Shown here in pieces: positions 36,216 to 41,674 of a DNA stretch of 64,000 bases. The stretch is taken from NCBI GenBank assembly GCA_021793395.1, contig JAJYSU010000005.1:1-64000 (forward strand), read 5' to 3'. Source of the DNA: Actinomycetes bacterium. Lineage in GTDB: Bacteria > Actinomycetota > Acidimicrobiia > Acidimicrobiales > RAAP-2. Under the pieces are notes generated by a model. The model had not been told where the DNA came from and did not search any database. It was given only the letters and a program-made list of their open reading frames with translations. The first letter of the stretch is position 1; each line of letters starts with the position of its first letter. Position numbers and translations under genes: made by a program.

Positions 36216-36347
36216 ATCCACCACGCGTCGTCTCCTCGTGAGCGGGCCGTGACACCCCCGACCGCGCCGACGGGTCAGTCGGGCGTCCGCGGCGGATCGC
36301 GCCGCGGTCCTGGCTCGCGGGATCCCGGGGTGGCGAGCGTTCTGGGG

Positions 36348-36353
36348 CACAAT
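36348..36353 (+). promoter_or_regulatory. -10-like element (CACAAT) of the Rrf2 gene
   Basis: CACAAT ends 6 bases before GTG at 36360, with ggggga between. Confidence 0.4.
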
Positions 36354-36359
36354 GGGGGA

Positions 36360-36818
36360 GTGCAGATCCCCGCGAAGGCTGACTACGCACTGCGCGCCTT
36401 GCTCACGCTCGCGGCCAGCGACTCCTCCGTCAGTACCGAGGAGTTGGCGCGCCAGCAGTCCCTTCCGGCCAAGTTTCTCGGCGCCATCCTCTCGGATCTT
36501 CGTCGCGGAGGTTTGGTGACGAGCCAGCGAGGACCCGAAGGGGGGTTTCGTCTCGCGCGAGACCCCGATCAGATCGTGGTGGCGGACGTCCTGCGCGTGG
36601 TGAGCGGTCCCATGGCCGGCGTACGCGGGATGCGACCCGAGACGGTGGTGTACGTGGGCGAGGCGACGCACCTGCGCGACGTGTGGGTCGCGGTGCGCGC
36701 GGCGTTGCGCGAAGTACTCGAACACGTGACCTTGGGCCAAGTGCTACGCGGTGAGTTGCCGACGTCGGTCACGCGATTCACCGCGGACCCCGATGCGTGG
36801 ATCACCCGCCACCCGTGA
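36360..36818 (+). CDS. Rrf2-family transcriptional regulator
   Basis: 152 aa from GTG 36360. The N-terminal winged helix is clear: IPAKADYALRALLTLA, STEELARQQSLPAKFLGAIL, DLRRGGLVTSQRGPEGGFRL. The Rrf2 region that in IscR/NsrR carries three cysteines (residues 85-110) here reads VRGMRPETVVYVGEATHLRD with no cysteine at all. So it cannot bind an iron-sulfur cluster through that loop and may sense something else, as CymR does. It lies 2.7 kb from the SUF operons and overlaps rnhA by 4 bases. Confidence 0.87.
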   Translation: MQIPAKADYALRALLTLAASDSSVSTEELARQQSLPAKFLGAILSDLRRGGLVTSQRGPEGGFRLARDPDQIVVADVLRVVSGPMAGVRGMRPETVVYVGEATHLRDVWVAVRAALREVLEHVTLGQVLRGELPTSVTRFTADPDAWITRHP

Positions 36819-37264
36819 CCACCATTCACACCGACGGAGCGTGCCGTGGCAACCCGGGTCCCGGGGGGTGGGCGTGGGCGAGCGACGACGGGGACTTCGC
36901 GAGTGGTTGCGACGCTCACACCACGAATCAGCGCATGGAGGTGCGCGCCGTGATCGAGGCACTGCGCGAGTATCCCGAGGGACCGCTGATCATCGTGAGC
37001 GACTCCTCGTACGTGGTGAAGTGCTTTACGGACCGCTGGTACGTCGGGTGGCGGCGTCGTGGATGGCGCAACTCCCAGGGTCAGCCGGTCGCTAACCGGG
37101 ATCTGTGGGAGGAGTTATTCGCGCTGACCCTGGACGTGGAGCGCCCGGTGACCTTCACCTGGGTGAAGGGTCACTCCGGGGATCCCATGAACGATCTCGT
37201 CGACCGGTTGGCCACCCGTGCGGCCGACGAGCAGCACGGCGAGCGCTCGCGTCACGCGCCGTAA
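36815..37264 (+). CDS. rnhA: Ribonuclease HI
   Basis: 149 aa. Cleaves RNA in RNA-DNA hybrids. The four acidic residues are visible: the Asp in IHTDGACRGNPGPGGWA, the Glu in TNQRMEVRAVIEAL, the Asp in VSDSSYVVKCFTDRWYVGW and the Asp in DPMNDLVDRLA, plus the catalytic His in KGHSGD. GTG start overlaps the Rrf2 stop (GTGA). Confidence 0.95.
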   Translation: MTTIHTDGACRGNPGPGGWAWASDDGDFASGCDAHTTNQRMEVRAVIEALREYPEGPLIIVSDSSYVVKCFTDRWYVGWRRRGWRNSQGQPVANRDLWEELFALTLDVERPVTFTWVKGHSGDPMNDLVDRLATRAADEQHGERSRHAP

Positions 37265-37323: not shown

Positions 37324-38739
37324 GTGTCCTCAGAGGTCCAGCACTTTGATCTGGTGATTGTCGGCGGCGGACCTGGGGGGTACGCGGCCGCGCTCTACGG
37401 TGCGGCCGCCGGTTTGTCTATCGCTCTCATTGAGCGTGACAAGGTAGGAGGGACGTGCCTTCACCGTGGCTGCGTGCCGGCTAAGGAGTTTCTCGAGACC
37501 GCGCACGTGCGCCGCACGCTCGAGCACGCGGACGCGTTCGGCATCACGGCGAGTGGGGTTACGGTTGATTTCGCCGTCAGCCAGAAGCGCAAGAACGACG
37601 TGGTCGGACGCCTGCACAAGGGGTTGACGGGACTGCTGAAGGGTCGCAAGGTCACGATCTTCGAGGGTACGGGCCGCTTGGACGCGGACCAGACCGTGAC
37701 GATCGTGGACGGTGCCGACGCCGGCGTGATCGCCCAGGGCACCAACGTCATCCTGGCGGCGGGTTCGGTCGTGCGGTCCCTGCCAGGCTTCGACGTCGAC
37801 GGGACCACCGTGGTGACCTCTGACGAGTTCCTGGACCTCTCCTCACTGCCCGCGAGCGCGGCGGTCATTGGCGGAGGGGCGATCGGGTGCGAGTTCGCGT
37901 CCATGCTCGCCGACATGGGCACGTCAGTGACGATCCTCGAGTTTCTGCCCACGATTCTCGCGGGCTGCGACGCGGAAGTGGTAAGCGTCGTGCAGCGCTC
38001 CTTCAAGAAGCGGGGTATCGACGTACGCACCGGTGTTCGCGTGACGGGCCACACGCCGGGTGGTACCACGACGACGGTCGCCGTTGAGGGAGGGGATCCT
38101 CTCGAGGTGGAGATGGTCGTGATGTCGGTGGGCCGTCGACCGCGCACGGAGGGTCTGCTCGGTGAGGGCACGGACGTGGCGCTCGACGAGCGCGGCTTCG
38201 TGGTGGCCGACCGGTACCAGCGCACCGCCAACCCCCACGTCTACGCCGTGGGCGACGTCGTGGCCGACTCGCCCCAGCTCGCTCACGTCGGATTCGCCGA
38301 GGCGATCGTGGCGATCAAGACCATCCTCGGCGAGGCGGTAGTCCCGGTGGACTACGAGCGCGTTCCCTGGGCGATCTACTCCAACCCCGAGGTTGCCTTC
38401 TGCGGTCTCACCGAGGCCGCGGCCAAGGAGAAGGGCTACGAGGTGGTCACGAAGAAGGATCCCTTCGGTGGCAACAGCCGCGCGCAGATCATCGGCGACA
38501 CCGACGGTGTGGTCAAGATCATCGCCGAGCGTCGCGCGGACGGCTCCGCCGGCCAAATTCTGGGTGTGCATATGGCGGGACCGTGGGTCACCGAACAACT
38601 CGGTGCGGGCTACTTCGCCGTGAACTGGGAAGCCACCGCCGAGGAGGCCGCGGCGCTTATTCAGCCGCACCCGTCACTGTCGGAGACCTTCGGCGAGACG
38701 CTGTTGGCTCTAGCCGGACGGGGGCTCCACGTTGGTTGA
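37324..38739 (+). CDS. lpdA: Dihydrolipoyl dehydrogenase (E3)
   Basis: FAD disulfide reductase of 471 aa that reoxidises dihydrolipoyl-E2. FAD motif DLVIVGGGPGGYAAALYGAA at the N terminus, redox pair C45/C50 in GGTCLHRGCVPAKEFL (the common form is CLN.GCIPSK), NAD motif AAVIGGGAIGCEFASMLADMG near residue 180, the second FAD motif NPHVYAVGDVV, and the catalytic His-Glu in LIQPHPSLSETFGE at the end. GTG follows AAAAGGGG; TAGGCT at 37285-37290 is a candidate -10. The E2 start overlaps its stop by 8 bases. Confidence 0.95.
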   Translation: MSSEVQHFDLVIVGGGPGGYAAALYGAAAGLSIALIERDKVGGTCLHRGCVPAKEFLETAHVRRTLEHADAFGITASGVTVDFAVSQKRKNDVVGRLHKGLTGLLKGRKVTIFEGTGRLDADQTVTIVDGADAGVIAQGTNVILAAGSVVRSLPGFDVDGTTVVTSDEFLDLSSLPASAAVIGGGAIGCEFASMLADMGTSVTILEFLPTILAGCDAEVVSVVQRSFKKRGIDVRTGVRVTGHTPGGTTTTVAVEGGDPLEVEMVVMSVGRRPRTEGLLGEGTDVALDERGFVVADRYQRTANPHVYAVGDVVADSPQLAHVGFAEAIVAIKTILGEAVVPVDYERVPWAIYSNPEVAFCGLTEAAAKEKGYEVVTKKDPFGGNSRAQIIGDTDGVVKIIAERRADGSAGQILGVHMAGPWVTEQLGAGYFAVNWEATAEEAAALIQPHPSLSETFGETLLALAGRGLHVG

Positions 38740-40045
38740 CGTTACGCTCCCGTCACTCGGCGAGTCGGTCACCGAGGGAATTATTACCCAGTGGTTCAAG
38801 CACGTCGGTGACAGTGTCGCGCGTGACGAGCCGTTGTTCGAGGTCTCCACGGACAAGGTCGACTCGGAGATGCCCTCGCCCGCCGCGGGCATCCTGACCG
38901 AGATTCTGGCCGCGGAGGGCGACACCGTTGAGACCGGTGCTCGCGTGGCGGTCATCGACGATACCGCGTCCGCCCCCACGGCCCCCGCTCCGGCTCGGGA
39001 CGCAACTCCCCGCGTCGAGGCCCCCGTGGCCCCCGTGGCGGGCGGGTCCGCGTCTCCGGCGCCGGCGACTCGTTTCGCTCCGACTCCGACCCCTGCGTCA
39101 CCGACTCCGACCCCTGCGTCACCGACTCCGGCCCCTGCGTCACCGACTCCGGCCCCTGCGTCACCGACTCCTGCGCCGGCGGCCCCTGCGTCGTCGAGTG
39201 AGGCGGGCGCCGGGCTGGTTCTTTCGCCGGTTGTTCGTCGCATCCTCGCGGATGGAGGGGTTGACGCCGCCGTGATTCAGGGCACTGGTCCGGGGGGGTC
39301 GATCACCCGGCGCGACGCCGAGCGCGCGGTCGCGAACGGACCCACGGACGACGTCGTGGTGCCACTGAGCAACGGCCGTCGTCGCATGGGCCACCACATG
39401 AGCGAGTCGAGTCGCGAGGCGCCGCACGGCTTCGTCGCGGTCGAGGTGGACGGATCCGTGTTCGCCGACCTCGAGGAGCTCGGACGCGTCACGCGTGACG
39501 GTATCGCGGTGAGCGACGAAATAGTGGTGGGCCTCGCGGCGGTGCGCGCGCTGGGTGAGTTTGACTTTCTGAACGCGACGTTCGCGGGCGATGAGTTGGT
39601 GGTGCACCGCACGGTCAACCTTGGCTTCGTGCGCGCCGCCGCCGCCGACGGCATGCTGATTCCGGTCGTGCACGCGGCCGCCGGCTTGACGTTGCGCGCG
39701 CTCGCCCGTCGAGTGGTGGAATTGGGCGAGCGGATGGCGTCGCGACAGCTCACTGCCGACGACCTGATGGGCGGTACCTTCACCATCGTGGGGGCGCCGA
39801 GCGCGCATACCCTCTTTACTGAGCCCATCATCATTCAGCCGCAAGTCGCCGTCCTCTCGGTGGGCGCGGTGCGTGAGGTGCCAGTGATCGCCCACGACGA
39901 CCAAGGTGCGCGAGTCGTACCCGGCCGTCGGCTGGTTCTGGGGCTGTCGTTCGATCATCGGGTGTGCGAGCCGGTGACGGCGGTCGCTTATCTGGAGCGG
40001 GTTGGTGAACTTCTCGCGGGTATGGATCTGGCGAGCGAGCACTAG
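38732..40045 (+). CDS. 2-oxoacid dehydrogenase E2 component (dihydrolipoamide acyltransferase)
   Basis: 437 aa. N-terminal lipoyl domain with lipoyl-lysine K42 in STDKVDSEMPSP, a Pro/Thr/Ala linker with 7-residue repeats (residues 117-144), a peripheral subunit-binding domain (LSPVVRRILADGGVDAAVI, GPGGSITRRDAERAV) near 166-195 and a catalytic domain. The terminal active-site block reads LSFDHRVCEPVTAVAYL, so His409 is kept but the usual D-G after it is E413-P414. TTG start overlapping lpdA. Whether it serves pyruvate, 2-oxoglutarate or branched-chain oxoacids cannot be told; no E1 is adjacent. Confidence 0.88.
   Translation: MVDVTLPSLGESVTEGIITQWFKHVGDSVARDEPLFEVSTDKVDSEMPSPAAGILTEILAAEGDTVETGARVAVIDDTASAPTAPAPARDATPRVEAPVAPVAGGSASPAPATRFAPTPTPASPTPTPASPTPAPASPTPAPASPTPAPAAPASSSEAGAGLVLSPVVRRILADGGVDAAVIQGTGPGGSITRRDAERAVANGPTDDVVVPLSNGRRRMGHHMSESSREAPHGFVAVEVDGSVFADLEELGRVTRDGIAVSDEIVVGLAAVRALGEFDFLNATFAGDELVVHRTVNLGFVRAAAADGMLIPVVHAAAGLTLRALARRVVELGERMASRQLTADDLMGGTFTIVGAPSAHTLFTEPIIIQPQVAVLSVGAVREVPVIAHDDQGARVVPGRRLVLGLSFDHRVCEPVTAVAYLERVGELLAGMDLASEH
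39080..39163 (+). repeat. Four 21-bp tandem repeats encoding the E2 Pro-Thr-Ala-Ser linker
   Basis: Four in-frame copies of ccgactccgacccctgcgtc+a (copies 3 and 4 have g for a at one position), plus a decayed fifth. They encode PTPTPAS/PTPAPAS. Such linkers give the swinging lipoyl arm its reach; copy number is likely to vary between strains. Confidence 0.85.
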
Positions 40046-41674
40046 ATGCTGCGTCGGCGACACCTCGGCCGCGTCTCTTTCGAGGAGGCGAACGATCTCC
40101 AGCGTGCGTTGCTGGACGCGCGGGATGACTACCTGCTGGTGTTCGAGCATCCGCCGACCTACACCCGTGGCGTGCGCGCGCGCGAGGAGCACTTTCTCGT
40201 CCCCCCGGAGTCACTGGACGCGGTGGTGATCGACGCGGATCGTGGGGGGGACGTGACCTACCACGGACCCGGTCAGGTCGTCGCGTGGGCCATCGTGACG
40301 GTACCCGACGACCCCGGGGCCGGTCGCGCGCACGTCGCTCGCCTCGAGGACGCCGTGATCGCCACCGTGGGTTCCTTCGATCCCGACGGGCGGCTGGGTC
40401 AGGTGGGTCGCCTCGAGGGCTATCCGGGAGTCTGGGTGCACCTCGAGGACCGTCCGGCCAAGATCGCGGCGGTGGGCGTGCGCACCGAACGTGACGCCAG
40501 TGGACGGCGCCGCACGCTGCACGGCGTCGCGCTCAACGTGACGGTCGACTTGGGAGCATTCGCGGCCATCGTGCCGTGCGGTATCCCCGATAAGCCCGTG
40601 GTGTCAATGGCCTCGTTGGGTCTAGCGGTGCAACCGGCTGAGGTGGAGGAGCGTCTGGGCATCGAGTTGGGTTCGCGTCTGGGTGGAGTCGAGCACGTCG
40701 CGCGCGTTGACGTGGCGCACACGGGACCGAACACCAGTACCGAACGACCGCCACTGCGCCGACTGCGTCAGGCCGGGGTCGACCCGGAGGCCGGTATCTC
40801 GCTGCGAGTTCGTAAGCCCGAGTGGTTGCGGGTCGAAGCGTCGATGGGACGTGAGTATCAGTCCCTGCGCACTCTCACCGATGATCTGCGCCTGGTGACG
40901 GTCTGTGAGGAGGCCGGGTGCCCCAACATCTTCGAGTGCTGGTCGTCGGGGACCGCCACCTTTATGGTCAACGGCGAGCGGTGCACGCGCAACTGCGCGT
41001 TCTGTCTCATCGACACGCGCAAGCCGCTCGCGCTCGATCCCAGCGAGCCGTCACGAGTCGCGCAAGCAGTCGTGCGTCTGGGTCTCAGTCACGCCGTCGT
41101 GACGTGCGTGGCGCGTGACGACCTCGCCGACGGTGGGGCGGGCGCGATCGCGGCGACCGTGCGCGCGATTCGCGACACGTCGCCGACAACCAGCGTGGAG
41201 GTTCTCATCAGCGACTTTCAGGGACGGGCGGCGTCGCTCGACCTGGTGATCGACGCGGCACCCGACGTCGTGAATCACAACATCGAGACGGTGGCGCGTC
41301 TGCAGCGTGCGGCTCGACCGAGCGCGGGGTACCTGCGCTCGCTCACGGTGCTCGCGCGCGCGGCACGCGCCGGCATGACCACCAAGTCGGGCATGATGGT
41401 GGGCCTGGGGGAGACGGTCGACGAGGTTGAGGAGACGATGGCCGACTTGGCCGCGGTGGGGGTGTCGATCGTGACCATCGGCCAGTACCTGCGCCCCACC
41501 GAACGTCACCTGCCCGTGTCGAGGTGGTGGACGCCCGAGGAGTTCGAGGACCTCGCCGCGCGCGGCCAGCGTCTCGGCCTGGACCACGTGCAAGCCTCGC
41601 CCCTGACGCGCTCGAGTTATCACGCTCGAGAGGCGCTGGCGAGCGCGACGCCCGTGCGACTCGGACGCTCCTAG
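40046..41674 (+). CDS. Fused octanoyltransferase-lipoyl synthase (LipB-LipA)
   Basis: One 542-codon frame encodes both lipoate enzymes. Residues 1 to about 220 are LipB: FEHPPTYTRGVRAREEHF, DRGGDVTYHGPGQVVAWAI, the catalytic lysine K139 in PAKIAAVGVR, LHGVALNVTVDLGAF and nucleophile C178 in IVPCGIPD. After a linker (to about 255), residues 256-542 are a complete LipA: auxiliary-cluster cysteines C287, C292 and C298 (CEEAGCPNIFEC), radical-SAM cysteines C313, C317 and C320 (CTRNCAFC), LGLGETVDEVEETM-type GLGETVDEVEETM, YLRPTERHLPVSRWW and the C-terminal RSSYHA serine. ATG begins right after the E2 stop. It would transfer octanoyl from ACP and insert both sulfurs. Confidence 0.93.
   Translation: MLRRRHLGRVSFEEANDLQRALLDARDDYLLVFEHPPTYTRGVRAREEHFLVPPESLDAVVIDADRGGDVTYHGPGQVVAWAIVTVPDDPGAGRAHVARLEDAVIATVGSFDPDGRLGQVGRLEGYPGVWVHLEDRPAKIAAVGVRTERDASGRRRTLHGVALNVTVDLGAFAAIVPCGIPDKPVVSMASLGLAVQPAEVEERLGIELGSRLGGVEHVARVDVAHTGPNTSTERPPLRRLRQAGVDPEAGISLRVRKPEWLRVEASMGREYQSLRTLTDDLRLVTVCEEAGCPNIFECWSSGTATFMVNGERCTRNCAFCLIDTRKPLALDPSEPSRVAQAVVRLGLSHAVVTCVARDDLADGGAGAIAATVRAIRDTSPTTSVEVLISDFQGRAASLDLVIDAAPDVVNHNIETVARLQRAARPSAGYLRSLTVLARAARAGMTTKSGMMVGLGETVDEVEETMADLAAVGVSIVTIGQYLRPTERHLPVSRWWTPEEFEDLAARGQRLGLDHVQASPLTRSSYHAREALASATPVRLGRS

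Follow-up and report, generated by a model that had tools for sequence, protein, structure and literature searches.

The window, a stretch of 64,000 nt from an Actinomycetes bacterium of the class Acidimicrobiia, contains one open reading frame (ORF) that encodes an octanoyltransferase (LipB) and a lipoyl synthase (LipA) in a single polypeptide. This LipB-LipA fusion is real and old, and it is the usual arrangement in its class, whose members are mostly uncultured, as far as the class was sampled; because the joined form is found across the class, it is not a one-off oddity. Since both domains are complete, their catalytic residues are intact, one frame is kept across the class and the trees are consistent with a single origin, we consider the fusion to be probably a bifunctional lipoyl-assembly enzyme in one polypeptide, with a probability of roughly 0.85 as judged from sequence. 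The gene, its parts and its upstream neighbors are as follows:

37324..38739, + strand: E3 dihydrolipoyl dehydrogenase, first gene of the E3-E2-lipBA run (TIGR01350, 455.9 bits; cut-off 408.8)
38732..40045, + strand: E2 acyltransferase with one lipoyl domain, the likely substrate and the upstream gene of the presumed operon (Pfam Biotin_lipoyl, E3_binding, 2-oxoacid_dh)
40046..41674, + strand: LipB-LipA fusion gene, 542 aa (single ORF; NCBIfam and Pfam matches to both families)
40046..40699, + strand: LipB (octanoyltransferase) domain, residues 1 to ~218, with the K139/C178 dyad (TIGR00214, PF21948, Foldseek 1w66)
40700..40804, + strand: linker, residues ~219-253, with a predicted helix at 235-242 (column conservation, pN/pS, AF2 model)
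40805..41674, + strand: LipA (lipoyl synthase) domain, residues 254-542 (TIGR00510, invariant cysteines, Foldseek 5exk)

One frame for LipB and LipA

The ORF starts with an ATG that is immediately preceded by the TAG stop codon of the E2 gene, and it continues without an internal stop or frame change through the LipB domain, the linker and the LipA domain, as read from the ORF and from the hmmscan matches. In the N-terminal half, TIGR00214 matches residues 26-190 with 111.6 bits, above its cut-off of 83.55, and the LipB-domain model PF21948 matches above its cut-off with 85.4 bits. Four other LipB equivalog models score under their own cut-offs (145.7/155, 125.6/298, 124.4/230 and 107.3/235 bits), the first of which, PRK14345, covers residues 4-223. 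The C-terminal half is matched by TIGR00510 at residues 254-534 with 337 bits (cut-off 310.25). The Pfam domains LplA-B_cat, LIAS_N and Radical_SAM are all found above cut-off in the same protein, and a phmmer search against solved structures placed residues 5-225 on LipB 1w66 and residues 255-530 on the M. tuberculosis lipoyl synthase 5exi.

The residues expected of both enzymes are present. For residue and context counts, we used 99 fused loci, which encode 95 unique proteins. The Lys/Cys dyad of LipB, K139 and C178, is invariant in all 99 loci, and so are the six cluster cysteines of LipA, which form the auxiliary motif CX4CX5C (C287/C292/C298) and the radical-SAM motif CX3CX2C (C313/C317/C320). 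The RSSY serines near the C-terminus (S523 and S524) are kept in 98 of the 99 loci, the remaining locus having a gap there. The earlier note, made from the letters of the window, had described a single-frame fusion directly behind E3 and E2 that carries K139, C178, both cysteine triads and the C-terminal Ser; the profile matches, the residue check and the E2-fusion junction bear out this description in full.

The AF2 model of the window protein, built with 34 relatives, has a mean pLDDT of 88.9 and a pTM of 0.90, with a helix at residues 235-242 and low confidence at 224-228 and 534-542. A distant member of the fused set (L100, 28 rows) gave a pLDDT of 87.0 and a pTM of 0.88, with a low-confidence linker at 219-251. 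In Foldseek searches, the two halves found separate matches: the LipA half matched the M. tuberculosis lipoyl synthase 5exk as its top match (TM by target 0.91), and the LipB half matched 1w66 (TM by target 0.83). The high pTM of these two-domain chains, taken from two distant members with no unfused control, hints that the domains favour a certain position relative to each other.

Distribution and origin of the fusion

Among 37 genomes of the same genus, including that of the window, 34 contain a full-length match in one frame. Another (G022) has a partial match with one frame across the linker, and in G003 the gene is split over contig ends, one piece of which (residues 1-277) spans the linker; G004 has no match. 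The class was sampled with 148 genomes; a match was obtained in 141, and both domains lie in one frame in 138 of these 141. The 138 comprise 94 genomes with single matches spanning both domains, picked by eye from the match table, 31 (L038, L040, L044, L133-L159 and L161) and a further 10 (L197-L206) that were read as DNA and show one frame without a stop, and three partial loci (L170-L172) read in the same way with the same result. The other three consist of a LipA-only match at a contig start (G159, L160), a contig-end fragment (G197) and a genome (G149) whose match row is not among the matches listed. We checked that these groups sum to 148 genomes without overlap. Separate lipB and lipA genes were not seen in any of the 138 class genomes that could be read.

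The earlier note had held that LipB and LipA are nearly always separate proteins. In this class, the fusion is the rule rather than a rarity. Seven of the 148 class genomes gave no match at all; as the listed completeness of four of them (G156, G117, G121 and G200) is 93-96%, the gene may truly have been lost or replaced in a few members of the class. Of the 51 named loci (L051-L101), 27 carry Acidimicrobi- in their titles, and it is from these names that we take the class to be Acidimicrobiia; the others read Actinomycetes, Actinobacteria or similar, with one Candidatus Microthrix. The title of L068, which names an Acidobacteria MAG, looks wrong, as this fused locus clusters in the LipA tree with three rows from the genus of the window.

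Where fused loci were read as DNA, ~99 to 576 nt lie between the two domain matches, and no stop occurs there. The longest gap, 576 nt, is in frame and was seen in L161 (G178:C138:40000-44500). Stops had been reported inside 8 of the 94 full-length matches (L045, L162-L168); we rejected them as inter-domain breaks, as the DNA is free of stops over the whole span from the first base of the LipB match to the last base of the LipA match. One class genome (G111:C83:2400-3245) contains, in addition to the fusion, a second, stand-alone LipA-like match with 54% identity in an open frame of 326 aa.

Outside the class, neighboring lipB and lipA were parted by stops or frame changes, and no fusion was found among the loci inspected, namely 20 chosen for long open frames (L173-L192), L049 and 28 of L102-L130. 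The phylum sample of 246 genomes contains 207 with a match, 22 in the class and 185 outside it. Within the 20 loci with long open frames, five keep both domains in one frame but have 1 or 2 stops between them, nine have different frames and six have LipA only. The loci L102-L130 (Mycobacterium, Nocardia, Streptomyces, Cellulomonas and others) show 1 to 3 stops between the domains in 28 of 29; they belong to the best 80 matches, a ranking that favours loci with both domains close together. The exception, L124, has LipA only (63% identity) with a match near the end of its contig stretch; it may be a truncated class member and was left out of the trees. A search of plasmids returned 214 records, eight of which have at least 80% query coverage in one place; among the 30 matches listed, there are two such records and each is a two-piece match, one from Providencia with separately annotated lipA and lipB and one from Nonomuraea without annotation under the match.

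In a LipA tree of 82 rows, all fused rows lie on one side of one branch with an SH-aLRT support of 100, and in the LipB tree they likewise lie on one side of one branch with a support of 79. The trees, which are unrooted, were built by a quick method from 53 of the 99 fused loci and 29 unfused ones; as far as sequence can indicate, they are consistent with a single fusion origin. A locus from another class of the phylum (L049, G359:C83:26500-40500) has the order E3, E2, lipB, lipA, and its lipB and lipA share one frame with two stops between them. This arrangement is possibly a picture of the state before the fusion. Upstream of other unfused loci, E2 lies within the fetched stretch in some cases, not all, and further away. 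The simplest story, whose direction we infer, would be a single fusion in the class ancestor: in an E3-E2-lipB-lipA run like that of L049, the stop that parted lipB from the adjoining lipA behind E2 would have been lost.

Possible coupling, linker and lipoyl clients

From what is known of the two families, the N-terminal LipB half would transfer octanoate from acyl carrier protein, via a thioester on C178, to the lysine of a lipoyl domain, and the C-terminal LipA half would insert sulfur at C6 and C8 using two 4Fe-4S clusters. LipB uses octanoyl-ACP, not ATP. The fusion would keep both active sites together in equal amounts, such that an octanoylated lipoyl domain would soon meet the LipA half; the possible gain is local capture of the carrier domain. 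The earlier note had suggested that octanoyl-E2 may be channelled to sulfur insertion. Because the intermediate remains attached to a folded carrier domain, a tunnel of the classical kind is unlikely. Judged by motifs and profiles, both activities, and with them bifunctionality, are very likely, and a hand-over between the LipB and LipA sites is plausible.

How closely the two halves work together bears on the main alternative. There is about an even chance that the protein is bifunctional and yet consists of two independent enzymes tied together, the join having been fixed when a stop was lost in the class ancestor, with equal expression and no kinetic coupling. This alternative shares the bifunctional core with our best explanation and denies the coupling alone. 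Adjacent lipB and lipA genes on the same strand, found in many loci outside the class, would supply the starting point for it, and a survey of metabolic gene fusions notes that channelling was not promoted by the mere joining of genes (PMC4921024). The linker also speaks for this alternative. It is variable in length, with 48 to 107 residues (median 57) between the fixed columns 200 and 257 in the 95 unique proteins, and in 30 same-genus loci it evolves faster than the domains (pN/pS 0.41 for residues 201-256, against 0.27 for LipB and 0.20 for LipA). This wide variation in length, together with the 576-nt gap, argues against a strictly built hand-over device. Against two merely tied enzymes stand the lack of separate genes in the 138 class genomes read, the high AF2 pTM and a short conserved segment in the linker that is predicted to be helical in the window protein.

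This segment is confined to one part of the linker, which spans about 30 to 50 residues depending on where the LipB end and the LipA start are placed, so that the earlier estimate of about 30 stands at the lower end of the range. In the fused proteins, column conservation is 0.69-0.70 at residues 235-246, compared with 0.39-0.55 at 217-234 and 0.53 at 247-252, and pN/pS in the same-genus loci is 0.47 for residues 201-234 and 0.32 for 235-256. The segment may derive from the former N-terminus of LipA, given that, by eye, a similar arginine-rich stretch precedes RKPEW in LipA proteins that stand alone. A more ambitious version of the bifunctional reading would make the fusion a built relay, in which the halves are packed in a fixed arrangement and braced by the conserved linker segment, and a lipoyl domain, once docked, receives its octanoyl group from LipB and moves on directly to the LipA site while still on the enzyme. 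We regard this version as rather unlikely; if true, it would provide a natural one-chain lipoyl-assembly machine made from LipB and LipA.

That an internal start yields free LipA as well, giving the cell both fused and separate forms, is very unlikely. At least one in-frame ATG, GTG or TTG occurs between columns 200 and 257 in 92 of the 95 unique proteins, and start-like codons with a Shine-Dalgarno-like hexamer are slightly commoner in the linker (16/338) than elsewhere in the gene (76/3139), a weak test given that just 11 of 98 chosen gene starts pass it. Start-like codons as such are, however, no commoner in the linker (0.055 per codon) than elsewhere (0.068), and we looked for a conserved in-frame start codon there and found none, the best column being shared by 24 of the 95 proteins. 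The ATG at residue 267, present in 68 of the 95, lies inside the LipA domain and downstream of RKPEW, and a Met at the equivalent position is also found in many separate LipA proteins. The internal start that the earlier note had left open is judged unlikely, because no linker start codon is conserved and ATG267 sits within the LipA domain. The fusion protein may also be processed into two proteins.

In most loci the fusion lies next to E2. The E3 ORF overlaps the listed E2 ORF by 8 nt. E3 similarity is found upstream of the fusion in 88 of the 99 fused loci, and E2 similarity ends at most 100 nt upstream of it in 87. In two further loci the E2 match is 141 and 169 nt from the fusion (L069 and L093), in four the best E2 match ends 0.9-1.3 kb upstream (L032, L041, L072 and L101), and in four others there is no E2 match and the E3 match ends 47-117 nt upstream (L031, L090, L094 and L098); L078 and L083 have too little upstream sequence for a call. 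Further upstream (36249-37264), the window contains an RNase HI-like gene and a gene for an Rrf2-type regulator. Their order upstream of E3-E2-lipBA recurs in many close relatives with enough flank (L052-L068). Fe-S status, which LipA relies on, might be the signal to which the regulator responds. Downstream of the fusion, the opposite strand carries a gene with the domains of cobalamin-dependent methionine synthase. The promoter scan returned one site, on the other strand, and three terminator-like sites were found compared with 1.9 in shuffles. Within the E2 gene, a 21-bp unit is repeated 4.4 times with a 98% match (39080-39171) and encodes part of a Pro/Thr/Ala-rich stretch between the lipoyl and E3-binding domains.

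The close association with E2 in 87 loci would fit an enzyme dedicated to the adjacent E2, with the other lipoyl proteins served elsewhere, and a second enzyme could be missing from the draft genome, which is 91.87% complete. Yet the same genome encodes further clients. Contig C47 carries genes for pyruvate dehydrogenase (PDH) E1-alpha (above cut-off), E1-beta (above a subfamily model's cut-off) and an E2 that is matched best by the PDH acetyltransferase model (388 bits, below the cut-off of 445). A third E2, which has lipoyl, E3-binding and catalytic domains, is encoded on C23, and GcvH is encoded on C29. A search of the draft genome for a second LipB-family protein or a second LipA found neither, returning one PF21948 (LplA/LipB-family) protein and one LipA. 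We therefore rejected service to the adjacent E2 alone, which we consider improbable; given the two more E2 proteins and GcvH and no second LipB-family protein, the fusion enzyme most likely acts on every lipoyl protein in the cell, the neighboring E2 being one of them. Finally, an assembly, sequencing or frame artefact, for which one could cite single rows only, such as L070, which looks frame-shifted and was rejected as a real frameshift on account of a run of N inside LipB, has a negligible probability and is ruled out by the same frame across the same-genus genomes and 138 of the 141 matching class genomes.

The joint action of LipB and LipA is hard to test with two soluble enzymes. A natural fusion that is kept through the class and adjoins E2 in most loci offers a one-chain system for measuring the hand-over of the octanoyl-protein directly in comparison with the split enzymes. 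The fusion may also serve as a marker that members of the class share a common ancestor. It carries a warning as well, since a gene of this kind, if annotated from a single domain, would receive the name of just one of the two enzymes.

Comparison with known systems

Descriptions of a LipB-LipA fusion were looked for in the open-access literature and none was found. The passages seen of PMC10332631 concern fusions of LplB with LplA or a LipB-type unit, not of LipB with LipA; the main text of PMC4921024 contains none of the terms lipo-, octanoyl-, LipA or LipB; and in PMC4398509, 'LipBA' denotes an operon in Shewanella. The main text of PMC6067878, a paper with Acidimicrob- terms, has no passage on a LipB-LipA fusion, and the passages seen of PMC3904984, PMC12246082, PMC3917532, PMC8639206 and PMC9307952 contain none.

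Automatic names for such fused proteins may be carried by UniProt.

The closest relatives of the fusion in function are the separate enzymes of the LipB and LipA pathway, as in E. coli (b0630 and b0628) and M. tuberculosis (1w66 and 5exk), which belong to the same two families and have the same folds and expected reactions. In E. coli K-12, lipB and lipA are two genes with ybeF between them, whereas the fusion here is one polypeptide. In gene order, the closest is the unfused E3-E2-lipB-lipA cluster of L049, which has the same order and the same frame and differs by the two stops between lipB and lipA. In architecture, it is the NCBIfam family NF053790 (LplA_LipA_fuse, bifunctional lipoate--protein ligase/lipoyl synthase), which by its name joins an attachment enzyme to LipA and in whose profile LipA comes second. 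The window protein scores 356.7 bits against this model, well below the cut-off of 800, and the aligned profile positions 330-605 correspond to the LipA part only; membership in NF053790 was therefore rejected. The two kinds of fusion differ in the first partner, which is LipB in the window protein and a lipoate--protein ligase in NF053790. The joining of an attachment enzyme to lipoyl synthase is thus known already, and what is new here is LipB as the partner.
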